Of a stretch of 64,000 nt of DNA, positions 14,937 through 29,003 are shown piece after piece (positions within the stretch are counted from its first letter, which is position 1; the number at the start of each line of letters is the position of its first letter). Location: NCBI RefSeq assembly GCF_000234805.1, contig NC_016645.1:1402391-1466390 (forward strand), given 5' to 3'. The DNA comes from Pyrobaculum ferrireducens (GTDB taxonomy: Archaea > Thermoproteota > Thermoprotei > Thermoproteales > Thermoproteaceae). The translations under genes and the position numbers were made by a program. The notes below the pieces were generated by a model that was given only the letters and a program-made list of their open reading frames with translations, did no database searches and was not told the DNA's origin.

Positions 14937-15641
14937 ATGAGGCTCTCCCTCCTGTCCTTTAAGAAGTTCTTCACCCCCAAGACACTGGCTGTGTTGCTAC
15001 TGGCGGTGGCCCTTGCCGCCGGCGTAGGGATGTGGCTATATGTAAGATACGACCCAGGTAGTTCAAGCATATGCGCCACCTGCCATAACATGGCCCCCTT
15101 CGTCGCCGACATATCTAAAACCCCACACGGAGCCGTGGCCTGCGCGTGGTGCCACAGTATCGACTTCCCCCGGTGGCTTTATGTACAAGTGGTTGAGAAC
15201 CCCACCCCCCAGCAGATAGCCCAAAGATACAGCGCCACGATGCTGAGCCAATGCGTAAGTTGCCACTCGCAACAGTTAAACCCGCCAAATATCCACAAGA
15301 CGCACACCGCCCTGGTACAGAAACTCGCCGACTGCACAATCTGCCACAACCCACACAACCCACAAGCCCTAAGCGCCAACTGCCAGATCTGCCACGATAT
15401 AAACAAGATATTAGCTAGTCACATGGAGTTCCACGCCTACGCCTGGGCCCAGGTAGACACGGGCCGCTACGACGTCTGCCTCGAGTGCCACAGCCCCTGG
15501 GGCAAGTGGTACGTCCCTATAGGCCCGGACTGCCAGCTAGGCATCGGCAGGGGGGTCACCTGCATAGGTTGCCACGGCCCACGCGCCGAGCCCTTCCAGC
15601 CCATCCAGTTCCTAGACTGCGGGAGATGCCACGCCAGGTGA
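14937..15641 (+). CDS. Octaheme c-type cytochrome with N-terminal anchor (NapC/NrfH-like)
   Basis: 234 aa. One N-terminal membrane helix (residues about 12-35) precedes eight heme sites: CATCH, CAWCH, CVSCH, CTICH, CQICH, CLECH, CIGCH and CGRCH. The first is CxxCHxM as in NapC/NrfH. It is a paralogue of the cytochrome at 10093 but embedded in the FeS/FeS/NrfD operon, so it is the probable electron exit of that module. The 3' end overlaps the protease gene. Confidence 0.85.
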   Translation: MRLSLLSFKKFFTPKTLAVLLLAVALAAGVGMWLYVRYDPGSSSICATCHNMAPFVADISKTPHGAVACAWCHSIDFPRWLYVQVVENPTPQQIAQRYSATMLSQCVSCHSQQLNPPNIHKTHTALVQKLADCTICHNPHNPQALSANCQICHDINKILASHMEFHAYAWAQVDTGRYDVCLECHSPWGKWYVPIGPDCQLGIGRGVTCIGCHGPRAEPFQPIQFLDCGRCHAR

Positions 15642-17521: not shown

Positions 17522-18682
17522 ATGCCTAATACCAAATTAGCGATAATTACTGCGGCGCTACTACTTGTAGCAGTCGCCTACGCGCAGACTCTGTACGGCC
17601 CGCCATACGGCTTCAACCACCCAACCAACTGTATCCAGTGCCACTCCGATTCCACCTCTACAGCGAATAGCCCCGCGTTGAGCGGCCTCACGTCGTCGCC
17701 GCCCGCAGGCCAGTGCGATCCATCACAACAGGAATGTGTCTGGAGCCACCAGGTCCTGACGGGGCAAGTTGTATGGAAGAAGTGTGTAAACTGCCACGTA
17801 GCTATTCACAATTCCCTCCTTCAAAACAACGTACATTCTAACTTGTATAACGCATATGGCTGTGCCTGTCACGCAGTTGCTCACGTGGGCTACGGCGACT
17901 CGGTTGACGGCTACACTGCATGTATATACTTCTATGTACCGGTCCTATCTAGTAACCCCGGCTACTTCGGCGCAAAGCCGCCTGCTGTCAAATTCAATAA
18001 CACCTACATATGCTTCAAGGGGACGCCCGGCGGCACTTATCAATTCAAATACGACACCTACGTACCGACATCGTTACAGGACGTCCTAAATTCGAGTGGC
18101 TACGTCTATGTCAAGTGGCTTAATGTGAGCTATGTCGAGTACCCCAATGGTACTGTGATTGCCCAGAGGATGAGGGCCTCCTTCGGCTACGTGGACTTCT
18201 TCTCCCTGTTAACAACTACACCGATATTCCGCTATGAATACGGCACTGCCTACGGCGGGGTGTTAAGGAACTCCACCGTGAGAACTCACCCATTGACTGA
18301 GGAGGCGCCTAACGGAGAGACGATAATCATGGGCGCGTTCGACATACATGAGGGTTCCTTCATCCTAGTGGTGCCCTATGCTCCATACAGCCGGGCTCCC
18401 TACTACTTACCTGTGGCGAGTAACGTAGCCGTCGCGGCGTGTTTCAACTGCCACTTCGTGTACGAGGGCCAGACGGGCACCGCTAAGGTTATGAACATCG
18501 GCGGCGTGTGGAAGATAGGAATACCCTCCGACGTTCTCAACTCCCTAACCAATCCGCACGAGATTTCGATGCCAACTGTGGCGGCGTCCGGAGGCGCGGC
18601 GCCCAACCTAGCCCTGGTGGCTCTGCTAGCCACAGCCACGTTGCTAGGGGGAGCTTTCGTAGCTATTAGGAGGAGGTTATAA
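17522..18682 (+). CDS. Tetraheme cytochrome with a CxCH motif and C-terminal anchor; nanowire-subunit candidate
   Basis: 386 aa. The signal peptide ends near AYAQT, and a C-terminal hydrophobic segment ends in RRRL. Heme sites are CIQCH, CVNCH, an unusual CACH (one residue between cysteines, followed by AVAH) and CFNCH near the C-terminus. The long spacer between sites 3 and 4 is beta-rich with many aromatic residues. The same four-site unit occurs twice in the protein at 22792. Small tetraheme cytochromes forming extracellular filaments are reported for Pyrobaculum calidifontis; this gene, beside cytochrome maturation genes, is a good candidate for that class. ATG 17522 follows a TATA-like box at 17491-17500. 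Confidence 0.75.
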   Translation: MPNTKLAIITAALLLVAVAYAQTLYGPPYGFNHPTNCIQCHSDSTSTANSPALSGLTSSPPAGQCDPSQQECVWSHQVLTGQVVWKKCVNCHVAIHNSLLQNNVHSNLYNAYGCACHAVAHVGYGDSVDGYTACIYFYVPVLSSNPGYFGAKPPAVKFNNTYICFKGTPGGTYQFKYDTYVPTSLQDVLNSSGYVYVKWLNVSYVEYPNGTVIAQRMRASFGYVDFFSLLTTTPIFRYEYGTAYGGVLRNSTVRTHPLTEEAPNGETIIMGAFDIHEGSFILVVPYAPYSRAPYYLPVASNVAVAACFNCHFVYEGQTGTAKVMNIGGVWKIGIPSDVLNSLTNPHEISMPTVAASGGAAPNLALVALLATATLLGGAFVAIRRRL

Positions 18683-18706
18683 TAATAAAACATATTTTTT
18701 CCTTTC

Positions 18707-20110
18707 ATGTTGAATTTAGTATTTCTATTATTTCTCCTAGTTGCCAGCGTCGTATTTCCCTCTTTTCCTCTATTAGCCGTTGCGATATATGCCGTGGGCC
18801 TCGTCTTTATTGCCCGGCGTCATTGGTGGTTCCTGGTGACGTACGGCGTCTTGTTAGCCGCTGTCTGGGAGATGGGAGGGGTGCCGGGGCCTTTGCAACA
18901 CTTAGCGTTGCTTGCGGTTGCGCTCTACGTCACAGCGATTGCCATTTGGCAACACGCCTACGTGCCGATCGCGGGGGGCGTCGCCGTAAGCTCTATCGGC
19001 TACGTGGCGGCTGGAGATCCTCTAAAGGTCTTTGCTCCCTACTTCGCCTATTTAGCTATGGTGGCGTGGGTGGCTTGGAGGCTTGGCGGGGGGAGGCCGG
19101 CCTATTTAATAGGAACCTCCTCGCTAGTTCTACAGACAGTAGTTCTGCTTTTTGGCGAGGTGCCGCTAGTGGGGAGCTGGCACTTCGCCCCTTTGCTAGT
19201 TTTCTCCCTAATCCCCCTGGTCTTCCAAGACGGGGGAGGTTTTACACCATGTAGAGATGTAGCGGCGTTGATTATCTCCGCCGCCGGGGGCCTGGCTTGG
19301 GGGCTGTTTGTACTGTTTACGAAATCGCCCGACTCCTTCTATACAAATCTATACACGTTGCCATTCCTCGCGATGTCGGCGCTGTTGGTGTCTCTGATAA
19401 GATCCCCCAGGGGGTTCGTGGGGGGTGTCTTAGTCGCCTTGGGGATATACCTCCTTGGTCTATACTTTGTACCTCCTCTCCTTTCATGGCTCTTTACATC
19501 GGTTATTCCTCTGTACGTTGTCTTGGCGTTTTCCTTGGGGAGATCCAGGGCGTTGGTCTACGCGACGGCGGCCGTGGTCACCGGGCTTGTCTTGATCTAC
19601 ATCTCGCCGTTGATATATACGCCGGCGGCAACAGCCAGCCTCAAGCTTGGGCCCGTCGTGGTGGCCCCCGACGGAACCCTGGCCTCTTACAAAGGGGGCT
19701 TCGCCAAGCTCTCTGGTGGTGCCTTCGGCGTAGTCGACGGCGTCGGTAGGGGGTATGTATATGTTGAAGTTTTTCGCACGGGCTTCAAGGCGCCTATAGA
19801 GGTGGATTTTGTAGATATGGAGGGCTCTGTCTACCAAGGCGTCTTCTACATATTTCCCGATATATACATCATCAGGATTTACGTACTTGACGACGTCTAC
19901 AGGTCTTATCTCATGTGTACGCTGGGCTCCGAGCTAGGCGTTGGGTGCGGCGGGTTGCGGCTATCTCTTGAGCTGGTGGTGACTGTGGCTCGCGGTGTCT
20001 TGCTCTACGGGTTGCTGTGGTTCTGTGTGTTGCTGTCTCCGTGGGTTGCGTGGCGTCTCTCGCAGTGGTTGATAACTTTTGTGGAGCGGTTTAAAACAAC
20101 TGTACACTAG
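18707..20110 (+). CDS. Polytopic membrane protein of unknown function in the cytochrome maturation cluster
   Basis: 467 aa. About ten hydrophobic helices fill residues 1-310, then a soluble beta-rich domain (starting near LKLGPVVVAPDGTLASYKGG), then a final helix pair near the C-terminus. No WWD heme-handling motif or CxxC is seen, so it is not CcmF/CcmC. It lies between the tetraheme cytochrome and ccmF, all on one strand. The topology (membrane bundle, outside domain, last helix) resembles that of CcmF in outline. It may help heme delivery or cytochrome export; no family is recognised. Confidence 0.7.
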   Translation: MLNLVFLLFLLVASVVFPSFPLLAVAIYAVGLVFIARRHWWFLVTYGVLLAAVWEMGGVPGPLQHLALLAVALYVTAIAIWQHAYVPIAGGVAVSSIGYVAAGDPLKVFAPYFAYLAMVAWVAWRLGGGRPAYLIGTSSLVLQTVVLLFGEVPLVGSWHFAPLLVFSLIPLVFQDGGGFTPCRDVAALIISAAGGLAWGLFVLFTKSPDSFYTNLYTLPFLAMSALLVSLIRSPRGFVGGVLVALGIYLLGLYFVPPLLSWLFTSVIPLYVVLAFSLGRSRALVYATAAVVTGLVLIYISPLIYTPAATASLKLGPVVVAPDGTLASYKGGFAKLSGGAFGVVDGVGRGYVYVEVFRTGFKAPIEVDFVDMEGSVYQGVFYIFPDIYIIRIYVLDDVYRSYLMCTLGSELGVGCGGLRLSLELVVTVARGVLLYGLLWFCVLLSPWVAWRLSQWLITFVERFKTTVH

Positions 20111-20130
20111 TTATACATAGACATAAATAG
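20101..20130 (+). promoter_or_regulatory. TGTACA operator plus TATA box of ccmF
   Basis: TGTACA (20101-20106, inside the end of the previous gene) is followed after 14 bp by ACATAAATAG (20121-20130). ATG 20150 is 24 bp from the box centre. It has the same geometry as the other operator sites. Confidence 0.6.
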
Positions 20131-20149
20131 AGAGATGTATCTACAATAC

Positions 20150-22795
20150 ATGCATTTCACAGGTGCCGTGTTTATAACATCTCTCCTTATGTATCTAGCC
20201 TATTTAACATCGCTTATCAAGGCGCCGCGTTGGTCCCGGTGGTTGTTAATAGCCGCAACTGCGGCGCTTACGGCATCTTGGGCTTTGTACACTTACTCAT
20301 TCCTCGCCCAAGATTTCTCACTGGCGGAGGTGGCGAGGAATACAAATCTCGGGATGCCTTGGTGGCTGAGGCTCGCGGCGTCTTGGGCCAGCACGGGATC
20401 GAGCCTCCTGCTGTTCACATTTTTCATAGGGCTGTACATCTTGGCCGCCCACCTTGCCTCGGCTCCCCGGGTTGGGCTTTCGGCGGCCACCGCGGTGCTC
20501 CTAGTCGTGGGCGCCAGCGTCTTTCTCTACGGCACCTTTGACACCTTGAGCGAAGCTACTATAGGCGGGGGGCTGAACCCCTTGTTGAAAAGCTTCTGGG
20601 TGGCGGTCCACCCGCCTCTTGTCTTTTTGGGATACGCCGGCGTCTTGGTTACATCGCTGTCGCTGGCGGCGGCTGAGTCGCAGAAGTTAAAAAGGTTAAT
20701 GTATGTGGCGCTGGCCTCTCTCTTTGCAGGGCTTGTAGTTGGGGGCTACTGGAGCTACGTAACTTTTGGATGGGGCGGGTACTGGGCCTGGGATCCGGTG
20801 GAGACGGCCCAGCTGATGGTATTTGTAGCGGCCACCGCATCGCTCCACGTGCCTTCGTCGCTGGGCCAATTGAGGCGCGCCTCCTACCTCTTAGCAGCGA
20901 GCGGCGTCTTCCTAGCCCTCTTCGTGACTAGGACTGGCATGAGCCCTCTACACGGCTTCGCCTCGCCGGGCGCCGGCGGCTACCTCTTGCTGGCCGCCGC
21001 ACTTCTCTTCCTCTTCGCTTTTATCCGCGATGTTTTGACCGCCAAGTTTACACACTGGGCCAGCTGGGGTAGGACCGTCACGTTTCTTGTGATATTCGCC
21101 GCTGGCCTCCTTCTCTACGGCTCTTTGCTGGTGCCAGCGATAGGCGTGGCGGCTGGCGTAAACACATCGCCTCCGCAGATGGACGACGGAATGTGGTTCT
21201 ACAACCCGGCGCTCTACGTCTTGGTATTCACAACACTTGTCCTGGCTCCTCTGATCTACCTGGAGCGGGGCGGCCGCCTTCTTGTAATATACCTCGCCGC
21301 AGGCCTAGCCGCCAGCGGCCTCGCCGTCGCCTTAGTACTCGCCGGCGTCTTAGTAATCTCCCTAAAGTCTCATGTACTTACAAACGTCGCCGTCGCCGCG
21401 GCGTTGGCGTGGTCAGTCCCGGCGGGTGTAGTCATAGCATACTCAGCATTCAAGGCGGGGGGCAGATCAGCCGCTCTCACGAGAGTACTGCACCTAGCCC
21501 TTTTGATCTTCTTCGTGGCTGTGGTGTACAGCTTGCCTTTCGCCTACAATAGGGCCTATTTTCTAGATGTCTATATCACGCCCGAGGCCACCGCCAAGGT
21601 GGCGGGCTTCGAGGTTAGTGTGGTTAACTACAGCCTTGGCTTAATGGAGGAGCGCCTTGATATATACACGGTTTACCGCGGCAACGCTGTTTACAGCTAC
21701 GCCCAGGCTGGCCTGGCGTCCGTCACGGGCCTTCTGTCTCAGATAAAGCCGATGATCGACGAGGCGGCTAGGCGCGTGGAGAGGAGCCCCGTGCTGGGCT
21801 TCTTATTCAGAGGGGTGGAGACGCCGCTGTCCATCGGCGACGTCGTGATAACGCTGGTTAACTCCACCAAGGTTGTGTTGAGAAACGCATCGCTTGCCCC
21901 GTACGTGGCGCATACGGGGGGCGGCTTCGCCTTGATGCTCTCCATACACGGCGAGTCCAACATCTCTATTGTAAACCAGACTGTGCTGGAGGTAGAGCCG
22001 ACATTACTTAGAGTTGAAAATGTCGAGATCAACATCTCCGGCGTCGTGGTGGCTCAAGGCGGCGGTGGATATGTTGTTTTAATACCGATGTCTGCGCAGA
22101 TATCCGCGCCGGGCGCCGCGGCGAAGTTGCCGATGTTGCTAGACATGAATCTGACTCTGTACTACATGGCGTTTAGGCCGGGGACGCCGATATACGGCCT
22201 GCTGTACCTACCGTTCTACAACTTGCTAAGCGACGCGAGGTTTGGGCGCGTATTTTCCCAAGACTTCCCCAAGGCCGTGTCCTCGGGCGCATATTCCAAA
22301 GCAACTCTGTCTATAGACGGGAGGCGTGTAGACGCCGTTGTGAGGTACGAAGTCAGCGGAGAGGTGAGCGGAGTACACGGACTCGTCTCGACGGTTGTGA
22401 CCATTCCCAGAGGCCTGGGAGATGTGTACATCGTCGTATTTACGCCTTATGTTAAGGGCTCGCTTTCCTACTACCCAGAGCCTATGATTTACTACATACA
22501 CAACATCCTAAGGTCTATGCCGCCTGTAGACGCCCTACGTGTCGCCGCGGTGTTGATCACCGGATTCTTCCTAGACCAGCTGGGCAGAGCTTCGCCAGAG
22601 ACCTTCCCCACCCTCTACACAAACGCCTACCTTGAAGTGCTCACACTGGCCTATAAATACGACCCCAGGCAGTCGCCTATATACACCGAGGGTCTACATA
22701 TCACTGTTAAGGAGGTGCCCGCCGTAAACCTCCTGTGGGCGTCCTCCATAGCCGCGGCGGCTTTGCTCATAATACTGGCCTTTGTGAGGAGGTGA
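20150..22795 (+). CDS. ccmF: Cytochrome c heme lyase CcmF
   Basis: About 881 aa. The protein is strongly hydrophobic, with the tryptophan-rich heme-handling motif GWGGYWAWDPVETAQL near residue 205 and conserved histidines such as in FWVAVHPPLVFLGYAG. A large outside domain occupies residues about 480-840 before the last helix. It joins heme, delivered by CcmE, to CxxCH sites of exported apocytochromes. ATG 20135 is in frame, but the TATA box at 20121-20130 favours ATG 20150. The 3' end overlaps the next cytochrome gene (GTGA), tying lyase and substrate in one transcript. Confidence 0.88.
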   Translation: MHFTGAVFITSLLMYLAYLTSLIKAPRWSRWLLIAATAALTASWALYTYSFLAQDFSLAEVARNTNLGMPWWLRLAASWASTGSSLLLFTFFIGLYILAAHLASAPRVGLSAATAVLLVVGASVFLYGTFDTLSEATIGGGLNPLLKSFWVAVHPPLVFLGYAGVLVTSLSLAAAESQKLKRLMYVALASLFAGLVVGGYWSYVTFGWGGYWAWDPVETAQLMVFVAATASLHVPSSLGQLRRASYLLAASGVFLALFVTRTGMSPLHGFASPGAGGYLLLAAALLFLFAFIRDVLTAKFTHWASWGRTVTFLVIFAAGLLLYGSLLVPAIGVAAGVNTSPPQMDDGMWFYNPALYVLVFTTLVLAPLIYLERGGRLLVIYLAAGLAASGLAVALVLAGVLVISLKSHVLTNVAVAAALAWSVPAGVVIAYSAFKAGGRSAALTRVLHLALLIFFVAVVYSLPFAYNRAYFLDVYITPEATAKVAGFEVSVVNYSLGLMEERLDIYTVYRGNAVYSYAQAGLASVTGLLSQIKPMIDEAARRVERSPVLGFLFRGVETPLSIGDVVITLVNSTKVVLRNASLAPYVAHTGGGFALMLSIHGESNISIVNQTVLEVEPTLLRVENVEINISGVVVAQGGGGYVVLIPMSAQISAPGAAAKLPMLLDMNLTLYYMAFRPGTPIYGLLYLPFYNLLSDARFGRVFSQDFPKAVSSGAYSKATLSIDGRRVDAVVRYEVSGEVSGVHGLVSTVVTIPRGLGDVYIVVFTPYVKGSLSYYPEPMIYYIHNILRSMPPVDALRVAAVLITGFFLDQLGRASPETFPTLYTNAYLEVLTLAYKYDPRQSPIYTEGLHITVKEVPAVNLLWASSIAAAALLIILAFVRR

Positions 22796-24147
22796 AGTGG
22801 GTAACCATACTTGTGTTGCTCGTCGCCTTGGCCTTTGCAGTTCCCAACCCCACTTCCGATAAAGGTGTGTGTAATACATGCCATGGCAAGGGGTGTACGG
22901 CGTGTCACTCAGCCCCAACTTTAAGCGGGACAGTTCATCAATCATTTCCCAGTGTTGCGAAATTTTGTGCATGCCATGCCGTAATACACTTTAAGCAGGG
23001 TGATGTGAGTCTTTTTATCAAAGTGTTTTACCCAACAACATCACCTCCTTACGTGACGCCGTCGCCAAACTTTAGAGATACGGAGATCGACTATGCTAAC
23101 TGTCCTCGGGATTGTCCCCCTAATCTACGGCAACTTTGGTATGCTTTAAATAGTAGCGGCTGGATACAAAACGCCCCCGCCTCACGTATCCTCGTAGTAG
23201 GGCTCTGGGATTGGTATGTAAGAGATATAATAAAGCCGCTTCCCGGGGATTCTATAGCCAGGAATGTGCCCGGGATTGATCCCTCTTTTGTGGGGCGGTA
23301 CGGCTCTGTTGCTAATAGTAGCTGGGTTGTGTGTTTTAACTGCCACTTCGTCTACACGGCGCCTCAAGGCGTAACTGTTGGCGGGCCGCGGACACTTTTC
23401 GTGCAACACCCCGACACATGCCAGCCTTGCCACGGCGTCCCCACAAACCAAACTACTACAATAACCACCCCAAGTGGGGGAGCTGTGTCTAGGACTATTT
23501 GGGCGCATAACATTTTGGGGTATAGAGTCAACGGAGCAGACGCGGTGTGGAGTAACTGCGGCGTCTGCCACTCGGCGATTTCAAATGTAGTGGCTCAGTC
23601 TGTCCACAGCGGGGTGGGTTGCAAATGCCACGCCGTTGTCCACATCGGCTACAACTACAGCGGGACGTGGCTTGCCGGCGTGTATACCTACGTCGGCACT
23701 GGAACTGGGTGGGAGACCGTGCCGTCTATTGCGAGGACTGTACGGGTATATACGCAGTTAAACATTTCGGCAACCTCCGCCTTATACGCTCTGCTGTCAA
23801 ACGTCTGGAGGGCGGCTGGCCCTGGCCGGGACGTGGAGGTGGGCCTCTGGGACGCCTACTTAAAAGACTACATATCGACTCTCCCGGTAGGCGTGGGGCC
23901 TCAGAGGGTCTGGGCCGCGTGTTTCAACTGCCACTTTGTGAATATAGACCCCAGCAAGGTATCTGATCCTCATAGAATTGGCTGGAGCTTTGGCGTCAGT
24001 CCCTGGGATTTGAATAAAGACACAGGTTCTATTGAGCCTGGTGCTGAGCCTAGGAAGACCTCGGAGGTTGTAATGCCCCCGGCTGGGGTTTTGGCGGCGT
24101 TGGCGTTGCTGGTCGGTGGGTTGTTTTACCTTAGGCGTAGGGTGTAG
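22792..24147 (+). CDS. Octaheme cytochrome made of two tandem tetraheme units with CxCH motifs
   Basis: 451 aa starting at GTG 22792 (GTGA overlap with ccmF). It has a signal peptide, and C-terminal hydrophobic helix ending RRRV. Unit 1 has CNTCH, CTACH, CACH and CFNCH. Unit 2 has CQPCH, CGVCH, CKCH and CFNCH. In both, the CxCH is followed by AVIH or AVVH and the last site by FV, exactly as in the single-unit protein at 17522. An internal repeat GLWDWYVRDII/GLWDAYLKDYI precedes the last heme of each unit. It is a duplicated form of the 17522 fold, perhaps a cap, branch or alternative filament subunit. Confidence 0.78.
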   Translation: MKWVTILVLLVALAFAVPNPTSDKGVCNTCHGKGCTACHSAPTLSGTVHQSFPSVAKFCACHAVIHFKQGDVSLFIKVFYPTTSPPYVTPSPNFRDTEIDYANCPRDCPPNLRQLWYALNSSGWIQNAPASRILVVGLWDWYVRDIIKPLPGDSIARNVPGIDPSFVGRYGSVANSSWVVCFNCHFVYTAPQGVTVGGPRTLFVQHPDTCQPCHGVPTNQTTTITTPSGGAVSRTIWAHNILGYRVNGADAVWSNCGVCHSAISNVVAQSVHSGVGCKCHAVVHIGYNYSGTWLAGVYTYVGTGTGWETVPSIARTVRVYTQLNISATSALYALLSNVWRAAGPGRDVEVGLWDAYLKDYISTLPVGVGPQRVWAACFNCHFVNIDPSKVSDPHRIGWSFGVSPWDLNKDTGSIEPGAEPRKTSEVVMPPAGVLAALALLVGGLFYLRRRV

Positions 24148-24202: not shown

Positions 24203-25141
24203 GTGACTGGGTGGAGATTCCTGTTGTATATTCTCATCGCGGCGGATGTCCTGTCTGCGATCTACCTCGTGGGGTGGGGGCCTTTTCCGCTGATTATTTC
24301 AGAACTGGGCGCACCCACGGCGTATTTAAACGTGTATGTCCACGTGCCTGCGGCTATTCTGCTGTACATAGTTGCTGTCGTAGCCCTCGCCTTCGCAGTG
24401 TGGGGCGCCGTGAAGAGGCCCTCCGAGAGGATTGTAAAGTGGATGGACTTCTCGGCGTATACAGTGGCGTTGCTGGGCTGGTACGCATTTATAAGCGGCA
24501 CGATATGGGCCGCCGAAAGCTGGGGCTCCCCCCTCGCCCTCGACCCTAGGCAGATGTCTATACTTGTCCTAGCACTGGTATTCTCTATATACCCGGCGAT
24601 TAGGAGGGGTGTCGAGGATCCCGACAGAAGCGTCAAGCTGGGCCAGGCGTTTATCGCGGCGGGGTTTGTCCTAGCTGTGGTGTCTCTCCTAGCGCCCGTC
24701 CTCGCGCAGGCCTACCACCCCAAGCCTGGGACGACGCTCGCCGGATCCATGGGGATGTACATGGGCTTACGCATCCTCCTCCTCATAGCTCTTTTCTTCT
24801 CAGTAATGTTTCTAGGCTCTGCCCGCCACGTCGCATGGATCTACGTAGTGGGCGTCTTGATTTCGCTGGCGCTGCTCTACCCCTGGCTTTTTTACAGCCC
24901 TGTCAGAGTTGTGAATGTTACGGCCACCTCCATTATCTTGGAAAATGGCAGGTCTGTGCCGGTGCCGCCTGGCGAGGTTCTCAGCCCCGTGGAGGTGGGC
25001 GGAGTCCCCACGTTGCCTAAGAACTACGTTGCTGTGATCGGGGGGAGGGTTGAGCTGGTGAGGCATTTTAGTGCGTTTGTAAATTCTGCGCTTTACTTCA
25101 TTTTCATGGCTTTACTCCTCAAGCTGAGGGAGAGGCTATGA
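24203..25141 (+). CDS. ccmC: Heme-handling membrane protein CcmC/CcsA-like
   Basis: 312 aa with about eight hydrophobic helices. The tryptophan-rich region WAAESWGSPLALDPRQM corresponds to the CcmC heme-handling motif, and conserved histidines (VYVHVPAAI, RHVAWIYV) flank it. A short outside beta domain (residues about 232-285) precedes the last helix. It should load heme onto CcmE. It overlaps ccmE by 4 bp (ATGA). CcmC and CcsA are related; the CcmE neighbour favours CcmC. Confidence 0.85.
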   Translation: MTGWRFLLYILIAADVLSAIYLVGWGPFPLIISELGAPTAYLNVYVHVPAAILLYIVAVVALAFAVWGAVKRPSERIVKWMDFSAYTVALLGWYAFISGTIWAAESWGSPLALDPRQMSILVLALVFSIYPAIRRGVEDPDRSVKLGQAFIAAGFVLAVVSLLAPVLAQAYHPKPGTTLAGSMGMYMGLRILLLIALFFSVMFLGSARHVAWIYVVGVLISLALLYPWLFYSPVRVVNVTATSIILENGRSVPVPPGEVLSPVEVGGVPTLPKNYVAVIGGRVELVRHFSAFVNSALYFIFMALLLKLRERL

Positions 25142-25512
25142 AGAGGTGGGTGTTGGCCGGGGTCTTAATTGCCGTGTTTCTGGCGGCCGGCATAGCCTCG
25201 CTTTATATAGGCACGCCGAGGGACGTGTCTGATCTCGAACGCTTCTCGGGTGGAAAAGTGCGGGTTTCTGGTAAACTTGTGACGTATGGCAAGTCTGGGG
25301 ACTACCTCTACCTAATCCTCGAGGGGAGGGACGGCTTTAGAATCACGGCGGTTGTGCCGTATGTAGAGGTGTTGAAGGTGGCTGGCCCCTCCTTCCAGTT
25401 CAGCGACGAGGTTGTGGTTGAGGGCTTCTACAACCCCAGTACAAGGGTGTTGAACATAACCACCATTCTAAAGGGTTGCCACTCTGCCTACTATGCGCCG
25501 GTTAAGAGCTGA
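25138..25512 (+). CDS. ccmE: Heme chaperone CcmE, archaeal CxxxY type
   Basis: 124 aa. One N-terminal membrane helix is followed by an OB-fold-like domain (GKVRVSGKLVTYGKSGDYLY...). The heme-binding motif near the C-terminus is GCHSAYYAPV, where Cys replaces the His of bacterial HxxxY. This CxxxY form is known from archaea and some sulfate reducers. It receives heme from CcmC and delivers it to CcmF outside the membrane. Confidence 0.9.
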   Translation: MKRWVLAGVLIAVFLAAGIASLYIGTPRDVSDLERFSGGKVRVSGKLVTYGKSGDYLYLILEGRDGFRITAVVPYVEVLKVAGPSFQFSDEVVVEGFYNPSTRVLNITTILKGCHSAYYAPVKS

Positions 25513-25562: not shown

Positions 25563-25581
25563 GAGATTGGTATTTGAAAAT

Positions 25582-26193
25582 GTGTATACTTATAAGTATA
25601 TATCCGAGTGGGGGGATGTGATTGAGGCTGTTGACGTGTGGAAGCGCCTAGGCGGGGGCTGGGTGTTGAGGGGGCTGACTCTTAGAGTTAACAGCGTTGT
25701 GACGCTTGTCGGGCCTAATGGCTCTGGCAAGACGACTCTAGTCAGGATAATCGCCGGCGTTTTGGAGCCCACCAGGGGGGAGGTTTATGTAGACGGGAGG
25801 AGGCCTAAGGTGCCGGCTAGTTTGCTGGGCGTGGTTTTCCACAACCCGATGCTGTATCCAGAGCTCACAGTGAGGGAGAATTTAAAGCTGTTTGGAAAGA
25901 TGGCTGGTGGGAGACTGGAGGGGTGCCCCCTGGGAGTTTGTAAAGTGCTTAACAAACCTGTGAAGGCGCTGTCATTTGGCTGGAGGAGGCGTGTGGACAT
26001 CGTGAGGGCTCTCCTGCCGGATCCGCCTAATTTAGTAATCGACGAGCCCACCACAGGCCTAGACGAGGAGGCGAGGGGGGAGCTTCTTGACATCCTGAGG
26101 CAGAGAAGCGCGGCGTTGCTCACATCTCCATTCCCACTGGGCGTAGGCGTGCAGGTGGGCATCGAGGAGGTTCAGTATGTGGGAGGTAGTTAA
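25582..26193 (+). CDS. ccmA: ABC transporter ATPase CcmA
   Basis: About 203 aa with Walker A GPNGSGKTT, a degenerate signature region (ALSFGWRRRVDIVRALL) and Walker B LVIDEPTTGLD. It is the ATPase that drives release of heme-loaded CcmE. The family usually starts near the codon at 25618 (MIEAVDVWK...); GTG 25582 fits the TATA box at 25554; TTG 25567 is also open. The signature lacks the canonical LSGGQ, as is common for CcmA-like proteins. It overlaps ccmB by 17 bp. Confidence 0.82.
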   Translation: MYTYKYISEWGDVIEAVDVWKRLGGGWVLRGLTLRVNSVVTLVGPNGSGKTTLVRIIAGVLEPTRGEVYVDGRRPKVPASLLGVVFHNPMLYPELTVRENLKLFGKMAGGRLEGCPLGVCKVLNKPVKALSFGWRRRVDIVRALLPDPPNLVIDEPTTGLDEEARGELLDILRQRSAALLTSPFPLGVGVQVGIEEVQYVGGS

Positions 26194-26722
26194 GGCAGAT
26201 TTCAAGGCGGCGTCCCGTAGGCTGGAGGAGCTTGTCTTTATTGCAGTTGCCGGAGTGGCGGCCGGGGTGCTGGGGTCCTTCGCAGGCGGTGCCTCTGTTT
26301 ACCTCGTCGCGCTTTTAATGTCTCAAATCGCTGCGTATCTCTACGTCATTAGGGATTGGGACCGAGGAGTGTTGGAGGGCCTCATCTACTACATAGGCCA
26401 CGTCGGCGTCTACGTCTCTAAGCTCGTGGTCACCTCGACGGTGGCTCTTGCATCGACAGCTCTCGCCTGTCTATTTATCAACATCTCCTATCTCCCATCC
26501 GCCGCGGTGGGGGCGTTGTTGCTATCTGCCACCAGCTCGCTGGCCGCGTTGTTTGCCGTATATGGCGGCCTCCCGCCTCCTGCGGCGACTGCCATGTCGC
26601 TTGTGCTGGCGCTTCCGCTGGTTGTTAGAGTTGTAGAGGGTGGGTTTGTGGTTTCTCTCGCAATGGTCGCAGTGGTTGTGGGTATGGGTGTGATAGTTTC
26701 GGCGTTGCTTGACAAGGTATGA
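26177..26722 (+). CDS. ccmB: Heme exporter permease CcmB-like
   Basis: 181 aa with six hydrophobic helices after an amphipathic start (VVKADFKAASRRLEELVFIA). It is shorter and more divergent than bacterial CcmB (about 220 aa), but position after ccmA with overlap and the topology support it as the membrane partner of the ATPase. It overlaps the next gene by 4 bp. Confidence 0.7.
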   Translation: MWEVVKADFKAASRRLEELVFIAVAGVAAGVLGSFAGGASVYLVALLMSQIAAYLYVIRDWDRGVLEGLIYYIGHVGVYVSKLVVTSTVALASTALACLFINISYLPSAAVGALLLSATSSLAALFAVYGGLPPPAATAMSLVLALPLVVRVVEGGFVVSLAMVAVVVGMGVIVSALLDKV

Positions 26723-27852
26723 GACTCCTCTTCATATTCTTGCTTGTCGTAGCTGTTGTTTCTGCCAGCTATGTGGAGAAGGGCGCTTTAGTGTTCCAAG
26801 TGATAGACTCCCCCAAGGCGGTGGAGGGTAGGTTTTTGTTGTATTTCTACCAGCCGCTGTGTGAGGAGTGTAGGGTGCTTGAGGCAGAGGTGTTTTCCGA
26901 CAGAGCTGTGGCCGCCGCGCTTTCGGGATATCAGCTGTACGCTATAGATATCTCTAGGTCTCGGGTGGATTACATAGACGTCTATATAGATGGGCAGGTT
27001 GTGTACGTCGACCACGGCGTGGTGAAGTACTTCGTAACGAGGGGTGAGAGGAGGTTTCTAATCCCCGGCACGCCCACCGTGGTGATCGGCGTAAGGGAGG
27101 GGGACGTGATTAAGATGCTGGGCTTCTGGACCGGCGCAGACATGCCTCCCGGAGTGAAGCTTAAAGACGCCTTTATACAGTTTTTAAAAGAGGCCTCGGC
27201 AGAGAGAGGCGCAGAGGCCCGAGGTGGATCTGATTTCTATATCTGGCCTCTAGTCTTTACTTTTTTGATGGGCGTGGCCAGCGTATTCTCTCCATGTGTC
27301 CTGCCTGTCTTAGGCGTCGCGGCGGTTTCCCACTTCGCCCGGCGCAGTGTAGGTAAGGTGCTCTCTGGTTTAGTTGTTGCCTACGCCGTTTTCGGCGTCT
27401 TGGTGGCCGCCCTGGGCGAGGTGGCGTCATCTGCGAAGTTTCTGGTTACAGCTATAGGAGGGGTGGTACTCCTGGGGATGGGGCTGGTGTTGCTTGTAGA
27501 TAGGTTGAATATTAAATACGCCGTGGCTATGTCCCGGCTTCAGACATCGGCGTTTAAAAAACTCGGCGGCGCGGGGGATTTCCTCCTCGGCTTATCTCTC
27601 GGCGGCGTCTGGATGCCGTGTATCCTGCCGTATACAAGCTTCGCCACTGTGCTGGCCCTATCATCACTCGCCGGCAACTTCGCGTTGTTGTTTCTATCGC
27701 TTCTGCTCTACGGCGTGGGCCTCGCCGCCGCCAGCTACATGGTAATTAAGGGTCTCTTCAGACGCGTGGCCGGGGGGAGGAGGCTGGAGAGGGCGGTGGG
27801 GATCGCCGCGATGTTGCTCGGCGTTTATATGCTGGCGGCTGTGTTGATATGA
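26719..27852 (+). CDS. Thioredoxin-like domain fused to CcdA (DsbD-like reductant conduit)
   Basis: 377 aa. A signal is followed by a thioredoxin-like domain with FYQPLCEECRVLE (CxxC) near residue 45. A second half of six helices has FSPCVLPVLG and GVWMPCILPY, the paired membrane cysteines of CcdA. It carries reducing power from the cytoplasm to the outside to keep CxxCH cysteines reduced for heme attachment. In most organisms the thioredoxin partner is separate or C-terminal; here it is N-terminal in one chain. ATGA overlaps on both sides. Confidence 0.85.
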   Translation: MRLLFIFLLVVAVVSASYVEKGALVFQVIDSPKAVEGRFLLYFYQPLCEECRVLEAEVFSDRAVAAALSGYQLYAIDISRSRVDYIDVYIDGQVVYVDHGVVKYFVTRGERRFLIPGTPTVVIGVREGDVIKMLGFWTGADMPPGVKLKDAFIQFLKEASAERGAEARGGSDFYIWPLVFTFLMGVASVFSPCVLPVLGVAAVSHFARRSVGKVLSGLVVAYAVFGVLVAALGEVASSAKFLVTAIGGVVLLGMGLVLLVDRLNIKYAVAMSRLQTSAFKKLGGAGDFLLGLSLGGVWMPCILPYTSFATVLALSSLAGNFALLFLSLLLYGVGLAAASYMVIKGLFRRVAGGRRLERAVGIAAMLLGVYMLAAVLI

Positions 27853-29003
27853 ATTTTGTAGACCGCCTTGTCGCGCTTTCACTTACGCATAAAGAGGTAG
27901 ATGTAAATACCTTGTCGGAGGTGGCGCGGGGAGTTCACAAGAGGTGCGTGGAGGCTCCCTATCCAATTTTTGTCCTCCACACCTGTAACAGAGTAGAGGC
28001 GTATCTATATGACGTGCCAAGGGAGTTTATAAGCTTCATAAAAGAGGGCTACGCGCCGTACATAGGCAGACTAGTTGAATACAGGGGGCTGGACGCCGCT
28101 AGACACCTCTTTCGCGTAGCCGCCGGACTGGAGTCTATGCTAATCGGCGAGACGGATGTTCTAGGCCAGGTTGAGGAGGCGTTTGATAGACAGGTAAAGG
28201 CTGGCTACACCCGCGGCCTTCTTAAGACAGTGGTGGAGAGAGCTATAAGAGTGGGGAAGCGCGTCAGAACTGAGACCGGCATATCCAGAGGGCCACGTAG
28301 TCTTGGAACTCTGGCGATTATGTATGTACAGAAGAAGCTTGACCTCTCCACTGCGAAGATATGCGTCATTGGTCTAGGCGCGGTTGGCCGTGGATTAGTC
28401 AGGAGCTTGAGAGAAATGGGGGCGGGGGATGTGGTGGCGGTAAACCGTACTGTGGATAAAGGAGCGGATCTGGGCGTGGTGGTGTGGGCGTTGACTGAGG
28501 AGTCTGTGGAGAGATGTCTCAAGGAGTTTGACGTGGTCTTCACCGCCGTTTCTGCTTTTGAGCCGGTGATTAAGCAGTTGCCGCAGGGGGCCAGGGTAAG
28601 TTTGATAGTTGATTTAGGGATGCCTCGAAACACCGCGCCGGGGGTCCCCAACGTGGTGACTTTAGAAGATTTGAGATCTCTCGCCGAGGAGTACAACAAG
28701 AGCCGCGTTGCAGAGGTGGAGAAGGCGGAGAGGATTGTGGAAGAGGAGGTGCAGTCGCTTGAGCTGTTTCTAAGGAGGCGTTGGGTCGAGGAGAGGTGGG
28801 CTGGGCTACTGTCCTACTGGGTTAAGATCGCCGAGGATGAGGGCGAGAGGGCCGGCGGGGGGCTTGCGAAGACCGCCGCCCTAAGCGCAGTCAAGAAGAG
28901 CATTCTCCCACTTATCAACTACACGAAGTACATGGCGCTTGAAAAACCTGAAGAGGCTGACAGACTTATTTCAATTCTTGAAAAGGCGTATAAAATTAAA
29001 TAG
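27849..29003 (+). CDS. hemA: Glutamyl-tRNA reductase
   Basis: 384 aa. Reduces glutamyl-tRNA to glutamate-1-semialdehyde, the first step of heme synthesis. Visible motifs are FVLHTCNRVEAYLY (catalytic Cys46), AAGLESMLIGETDVLGQVE, and the NADPH-binding stretch VIGLGAVGRGLVRSL. Its overlap with the CcdA gene places heme supply in the same transcript as cytochrome assembly. Confidence 0.95.
   Translation: MNFVDRLVALSLTHKEVDVNTLSEVARGVHKRCVEAPYPIFVLHTCNRVEAYLYDVPREFISFIKEGYAPYIGRLVEYRGLDAARHLFRVAAGLESMLIGETDVLGQVEEAFDRQVKAGYTRGLLKTVVERAIRVGKRVRTETGISRGPRSLGTLAIMYVQKKLDLSTAKICVIGLGAVGRGLVRSLREMGAGDVVAVNRTVDKGADLGVVVWALTEESVERCLKEFDVVFTAVSAFEPVIKQLPQGARVSLIVDLGMPRNTAPGVPNVVTLEDLRSLAEEYNKSRVAEVEKAERIVEEEVQSLELFLRRRWVEERWAGLLSYWVKIAEDEGERAGGGLAKTAALSAVKKSILPLINYTKYMALEKPEEADRLISILEKAYKIK

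Follow-up and report, generated by a model that had tools for sequence, protein, structure and literature searches.

A CxCH motif in the cytochromes of archaeal extracellular nanowires is probably a heme c site with a shortened spacer

Can heme c be held at a motif whose two cysteines are only one residue apart? The question is raised by a 64,000-nucleotide stretch of the Pyrobaculum ferrireducens genome (NC_016645.1, positions 1,402,391 to 1,466,390, forward strand; hereafter the window), in which two genes encode multiheme cytochromes with CxCH in place of CxxCH. CxCH resembles CxxCH, CX3CH, CX4CH, the CX15CH of Wolinella MccA, and the CXXCK of NrfA in having a pair of cysteines followed directly by an axial ligand. 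Unlike CxxCH and its longer variants, CxCH has a spacer that is shorter than the standard one. Changes in spacer or ligand are known, and some of them need dedicated lyases (PMC3601427, PMC12285233). We consider it probable (roughly 0.7) that CxCH is a genuine bis-His heme c site, with both cysteines thioether-linked and maturation by Ccm proteins, and that it is a spacer variant of CxxCH.

We focused on the two cytochrome genes and their neighbours (Table 1). The tetraheme gene encodes an exported protein of 386 residues with an N-terminal signal and a C-terminal membrane segment, and its translation contains three CxxCH motifs and one CxCH: CIQCH at residue 37, CVNCH at 88, CACH at 114, and CFNCH at 307. 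AVAH directly follows CACH, which places a histidine four positions after the motif (the +4 His) at residue 121. The octaheme gene encodes 451 residues. Unit 1 contains CNTCH at 27, CTACH at 35, CACH at 59, and CFNCH at 181, and unit 2 contains CQPCH at 210, CGVCH at 256, CKCH at 277, and CFNCH at 377. Here the third motifs are followed by AVIH (+4 His at residue 66) and AVVH (+4 His at residue 284). The canonical two-residue spacer is therefore missing from site 3 of every unit, and the earlier note's description of CACH, CACH and CKCH at the third site of three homologous tetraheme units agrees exactly with the translations and motif positions. Both reading frames are open, with no sign of an insertion or deletion error.

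Table 1. Genes and heme sites of the nanowire cytochrome cluster, in window coordinates.
Position	Strand	Feature	Basis
14937..15641	+	Eight-CxxCH cytochrome, NapC/NirT-like and cytochrome c3/c7-like parts	PF14522, PF02085, PF03264
15632..17425	+	Exported protein with Lon (S16) protease-like domain	PF05362 E = 5.4e-06
17522..18682	+	Tetraheme cytochrome orthologous to PDB 8E5F, the nanowire subunit of P. calidifontis	phmmer, motifs
17861..17872	+	Heme site 3 (CACH), residues 114-117 of the 17522 product	Translation, alignment with the CACH of 8E5F
18707..20110	+	Membrane protein, no family match	Conserved position; no Pfam/NCBIfam match
20135..22795	+	Nanowire-cluster CcmF-type cytochrome c heme lyase, WWD motif GWGGYWAWDPVE	PF01578 E = 1.2e-17; TIGR00353 E = 7.7e-27, under its cut-off
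22792..24147	+	Two-unit octaheme cytochrome of the nanowire family, with six CxxCH and two CxCH	phmmer, unit alignment
22966..22977	+	CACH, site 3 of unit 1 of the 22792 product, residues 59-62	Translation, alignment
23620..23631	+	CKCH, site 3 of unit 2 of the 22792 product, residues 277-280	Translation, alignment
24203..25141	+	CcmC-like heme handling protein	PF01578 E = 2.7e-10; TIGR01191 ccmC E = 4.2e-9, under cut-off
25138..25512	+	CcmE-like heme chaperone, cysteine type, CHSAY (CxxxY) ending	Position, CxxxY ending
25567..26193	+	CcmA-like ABC ATPase	PF00005 E = 2.7e-23; TIGR01189 ccmA E = 1.7e-24, under cut-off
26177..26722	+	Probable CcmB, membrane partner of the ABC ATPase	Location after CcmA, shared by four genomes
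26719..27852	+	CcdA/DsbD-like thiol reductant protein	NF001419 DsbD E = 3.5e-7, under cut-off; synteny

Whether the CxCH site carries a heme can be answered from a solved filament. The tetraheme product matched chain A of PDB 8E5F, the nanowire subunit PcECN (A3MW92), with a phmmer E-value of 6.7e-177 over residues 7-385 and 73% identity. The octaheme product matched the same chain at E = 4.9e-10, and a profile built from units of its type retrieved 8E5F at 7.9e-23. The 8E5F chain is identical over all 385 residues to the orthologue from P. calidifontis (G018), and its sequence contains CISCH, CINCH, CACH, and CFNCH and no other CxnCH; the cysteines and histidine of its CACH are Cys113, Cys115, and His116. 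All four heme motifs of the tetraheme product match these positions, and the third is CxCH with its +4 His in both. 8E5F/A3MW92 is described as a tetraheme filament, and all known nanowires as having a single cofactor type, bis-His c-type heme (PMC11936953; PMC12954529). Because 8E5F is a tetraheme c-type cytochrome, yet has only three CxxCH motifs and one CxCH, the CxCH site should bear a heme. By this count of motifs against described hemes, we conclude that CxCH site 3 almost certainly holds one.

PcECN and the tetraheme product belong to the same family, are encoded in syntenic clusters, and share CxCH at site 3. The P. calidifontis protein polymerises as an extracellular filament with stacked hemes (PMC12954529). 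Filament formation is thus known for PcECN, and for the window's orthologue it is expected from orthology. The octaheme product is a two-unit, eight-heme relative of PcECN that is known here from its sequence alone. The Archaeoglobus nanowire 8E5G gave no match with any profile used.

To follow the motif through the family, we collected homologues by searches of the phylum, the class, the order, and the order of genome G208, and by one scan of named genomes. These gave a sample of 24 homologous units; the 10 genomes that contributed them belong to two orders (Thermoproteaceae and Pyrodictiaceae/Desulfurococcales). Site 3 was CxCH in 20 of the 24 units, in the forms CACH, CKCH, CRCH, CECH, CTCH, CVCH, and CICH. 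The +4 His was present in all 20 of these, with identity among units of about 30%. All four Thermoproteaceae orthologues of the nanowire subunit had CACH. The remaining four units (unit 1 of L046, units 1 and 2 of L047, and unit 1 of L051) had CxxCH at this position, between matching flanks that included the +4 His, as in SIHSGLQ-CSNCH-ATLH compared with SVHSSIG-CECH-AVVH. Both cysteines of site 3 were kept in 24/24 units. A tree built without the motif columns required three switches of spacer state, and strongly supported branches made two of these unavoidable. CxCH is thus old, mostly stable, and interchangeable with CxxCH, and the four CxxCH units indicate that site 3 is a heme c site of the ordinary kind with a variable spacer.

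The earlier note had held that site 3 is conserved and is neither a mutation nor a sequencing error, and this is supported by the 20 of 24 units, the ten genomes, the two orders, and the solved 8E5F. It had also proposed that a normal CxxCH in orthologues would count against the motif; CxxCH did occur, in four distant units only, and these point to a variable spacer, not to an error in the reading of CxCH. Its further observation, that AV-x-H follows each CxCH, holds for the three units of the window (AVAH, AVIH, AVVH). We rejected the +4 His as a feature specific to CxCH, because it is also kept beside CxxCH in relatives; it belongs to the site and not to the spacer length. In a comparison set from the phylum, made up of 25 unrelated multiheme cytochromes, there were 212 CxxCH and no CxCH. 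The 16 nanowire-family proteins had 24 CxCH and 75 CxxCH, and since these sequences are kin, their contrast with the unrelated set is descriptive only. A search of viral contigs found no relative.

Spacer length also varies at other sites. At the second heme site of unit 1 of the tandem cytochrome, P. oguniense (G129, L008) has PCSCH, its first cysteine shifted one place relative to the GCTACH of the window and the GCLSCH of G042. An extra CxCH, without the +4 His, occurs in unit 1 of P. calidifontis, P. oguniense, and G042 (YCGCH, YCSCH, and YCACH, respectively). In the 514-residue L008 protein, these two motifs lie at residues 55-58 (PCSCH, site 2) and 93-96 (YCSCH, extra), and tolerance of CxCH therefore extends beyond site 3. 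The stretch that bears the extra site in the three relatives is missing from unit 1 of the window's octaheme protein. In the 490-residue protein of G208 (L009:1468-2940, minus strand), site 2 of unit 2 reads C-SGASGVDSTLS-CH, an eleven-residue spacer at a site that is CxxCH in relatives, and the same family therefore varies its spacer both ways. The L047 protein (G440) has an extra CYGSRCH, with a four-residue spacer, at residue 125 between sites 3 and 4 of unit 1.

Histidines outside the motifs were also inspected. Full units have about five conserved non-motif histidines per four hemes (for example, His 35, 63, 92, 104, and 236 of L024), one of which may be a ligand for the heme of a neighbouring unit, or spare. 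Unit 1 of the octaheme product has few non-motif histidines, and some of its hemes have no obvious distal His inside the unit. An AlphaFold2 model of this protein, made with eight homologues, had a mean pLDDT of 38 and was not used.

We next consider how the heme is held. In the reading that we favour, CxCH would bind heme 3 of the tetraheme repeat that builds archaeal extracellular nanowires of the PcECN/8E5F family and is also found in the octaheme neighbour. This heme would be bis-His ligated, with the histidine of CxCH as the proximal ligand and two thioethers, one per cysteine. The thioethers would be made by the Ccm proteins encoded in the cluster, in a manner resembling System I*, and CxCH would differ in spacer length from a CxxCH site that is either ancestral to it or interchangeable with it. 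A cysteine from outside the motif could in principle substitute for the shortened spacing. We rejected this for the compact homologues L024, L025, and G208_a, which contain exactly eight cysteines, all within the four motifs; the CxCH heme of these proteins can therefore be attached through no cysteines but those of the motif itself.

Whether two bonds can form across a single spacer residue was addressed by a geometric fit, in which a Cys-Xn-Cys-His peptide was fitted in torsion space to a planar heme, with two thioethers and the His-Fe bond imposed and backbone angles kept in allowed regions. With one spacer residue the best cost was 0.02, as good a fit as with two. With two residues it was 0.25, and 0.0 in a pilot, and with no spacer residue there was no fit (cost of 8.4 or more). 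The model is permissive, with a planar heme, no vinyl methyls, and no surrounding protein, and it shows possibility only. Within these bounds, two thioethers together with His ligation would be sterically possible at CxCH. The suggestion that CxCH might be a new mode of heme binding has so far found no support: in the model CxCH can form its two thioethers and bind iron through His in the ordinary way, and no result points to a single thioether. The E. coli Ccm system matures CXnCH with n = 2 to 6, and we know of no report of its action on a motif with n = 1.

Attachment could instead occur through a single thioether from the cysteine adjacent to the histidine, leaving the first cysteine free or needed for maturation only. 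A shortened spacer is a natural spot for losing one bond, and cytochromes of this kind exist in Euglenozoa, where the first cysteine has drifted. A Tyr also replaces the first Cys in a subunit of a cd1-type nitrite reductase of Pyrobaculum arsenaticum (PMC4429474). However, the first cysteine of site 3 is kept together with the second in all 24 units, which argues against a single thioether, since an unneeded cysteine would be free to drift. In addition, the model leaves steric room for two bonds, and published structure-based modelling treats nanowire hemes as uniform c type. We consider a single thioether unlikely, while regarding it as a serious alternative. It also seems rather improbable to us that CxCH is a distinct and fixed attachment mode, in the form of a strained two-thioether loop or of a single thioether with a reserved first cysteine, that tunes heme 3 and is installed by the cluster's CcmF.

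A third alternative is that the CxCH cysteines form a disulfide or another metal site, with heme b or nothing bound and no covalent heme. CxC disulfides and CxC metal sites do exist, and CPCH is also found in Rieske iron-sulfur proteins, with two matches to the pattern in neighbouring loci. Box II of the Rieske [2Fe-2S] site, CPCH, contains the CxCH string, but a Rieske site also requires a CxH box I, and the two motifs are unrelated; motif inspection found box I to be absent from all cytochrome units. Given also that the solved orthologue is a tetraheme c-type cytochrome with only three CxxCH motifs, and that relatives have CxxCH at site 3, we judge an absence of covalent heme to be very improbable. 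Finally, sequencing or assembly error, or chance, is refuted by intact frames and 20 of 24 units in ten independent genomes, and by composition shuffles, in which one CxCHxxxH in the tetraheme product had P = 0.00025 (20,000 shuffles) and two in the octaheme product arose in 0/20,000.

The cluster also encodes a set of Ccm proteins. The Ccm genes and nanowire cytochromes occupy the same neighbourhood in four Thermoproteaceae genomes. No Pfam or NCBIfam profile, that of CcmE included, matched the CcmE-like protein, and a similar protein is encoded in a second Ccm cluster; the probable CcmB likewise had no Pfam/NCBIfam profile match. CcmH (PF03918) was absent from five genomes, with positive controls in E. 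coli and three others. The cluster shares with the archaeal Ccm System I* the proteins CcmA, CcmC, and CcmF, a CxxxY CcmE-like protein, a CcdA-like protein, and the absence of CcmH, which is also reported for System I* (PMC3601427; PMC9084895). Unlike in System I*, each genome here has two CcmF lineages, of which one goes with the nanowire cluster.

The two lineages led us to ask whether the cluster's CcmF is a dedicated heme lyase that CxCH needs, which would add to our preferred explanation and not replace it. The genome of the window has a second, general CcmA/C/E/F set elsewhere that is common to relatives without nanowire genes, and the nanowire CcmFs form a separate clade (support 100/100), apart from the second CcmF of the same genome. 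Within Thermoproteaceae, the nanowire CcmF accompanied the cytochromes in all four genomes that have them, and seven relatives that lack the cytochromes lack this CcmF too. Lyases for unusual motifs are also known, namely NrfE for CXXCK and CcsA1 for CX15CH (PMC3601427; PMC12285233). On the other side, the same CcmF clade adjoins the cytochrome of G440, whose family sites are all CxxCH. What this CcmF follows is therefore the cytochrome family, not the motif, and co-inheritance is enough to explain the linkage. We thus rejected the linkage as proof of a CxCH-specific lyase, and we hold a dedicated CcmF only as a tentative possibility.

Other genes of the neighbourhood may bear on the filament. 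In G042 (L074:9740-12487), the counterparts of the membrane protein at 18707 and of the tandem cytochrome form one frame of 915 residues, which suggests that proteins of these two types work as a membrane-anchored unit. A homologue of the Lon-like exported protein adjoins the G440 cytochrome (L084:3112-5037), so that this gene is kept beside the cytochromes in distant genomes too; the protein may help to process or assemble the filament. In the eight-CxxCH cytochrome upstream we looked for CxCH and found none. After the Ccm genes lies a glutamyl-tRNA reductase-like gene (window positions 27849-29003), which is also present in P. oguniense, as judged from the sequence. Glutamyl-tRNA reductase catalyses the first step of heme synthesis.

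We found no account of CxCH as an experimentally examined heme site in the literature searched, which lay outside the 8E5F structure paper. The earlier note's statement that no CxCH motif is established holds in this experimental sense. It does not hold for annotation, because the FEET pipeline already lists a CxCH pattern as a heme motif, with the evidence not given there (cited in PMC11218250). The site lies in a structure published in 2023, whose authors may well describe CxCH, and the observation is possibly already published.

Counting of hemes in genomes is affected by these results. A survey of archaeal hemes used CxxCH (PMC4429474) and another screen used n = 2 to 5 (PMC12545173). Screens that use CXnCH with n of 2 or more therefore undercount nanowire subunits by one heme per unit, and some relatives by more. 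Pipelines that count CxCH need a second criterion, because the CPCH of Rieske proteins is a false positive. Two likely Rieske proteins, so judged by their cytochrome b-like neighbouring genes (L078:6268-6822 and L079:10925-11488), match CxCH in this way. For the nanowire family itself, the alternation of CxxCH and CxCH at one conserved site offers a natural test of which spacers the archaeal heme lyase accepts, and of whether the geometry or potential of a heme in a conducting filament depends on spacer length.
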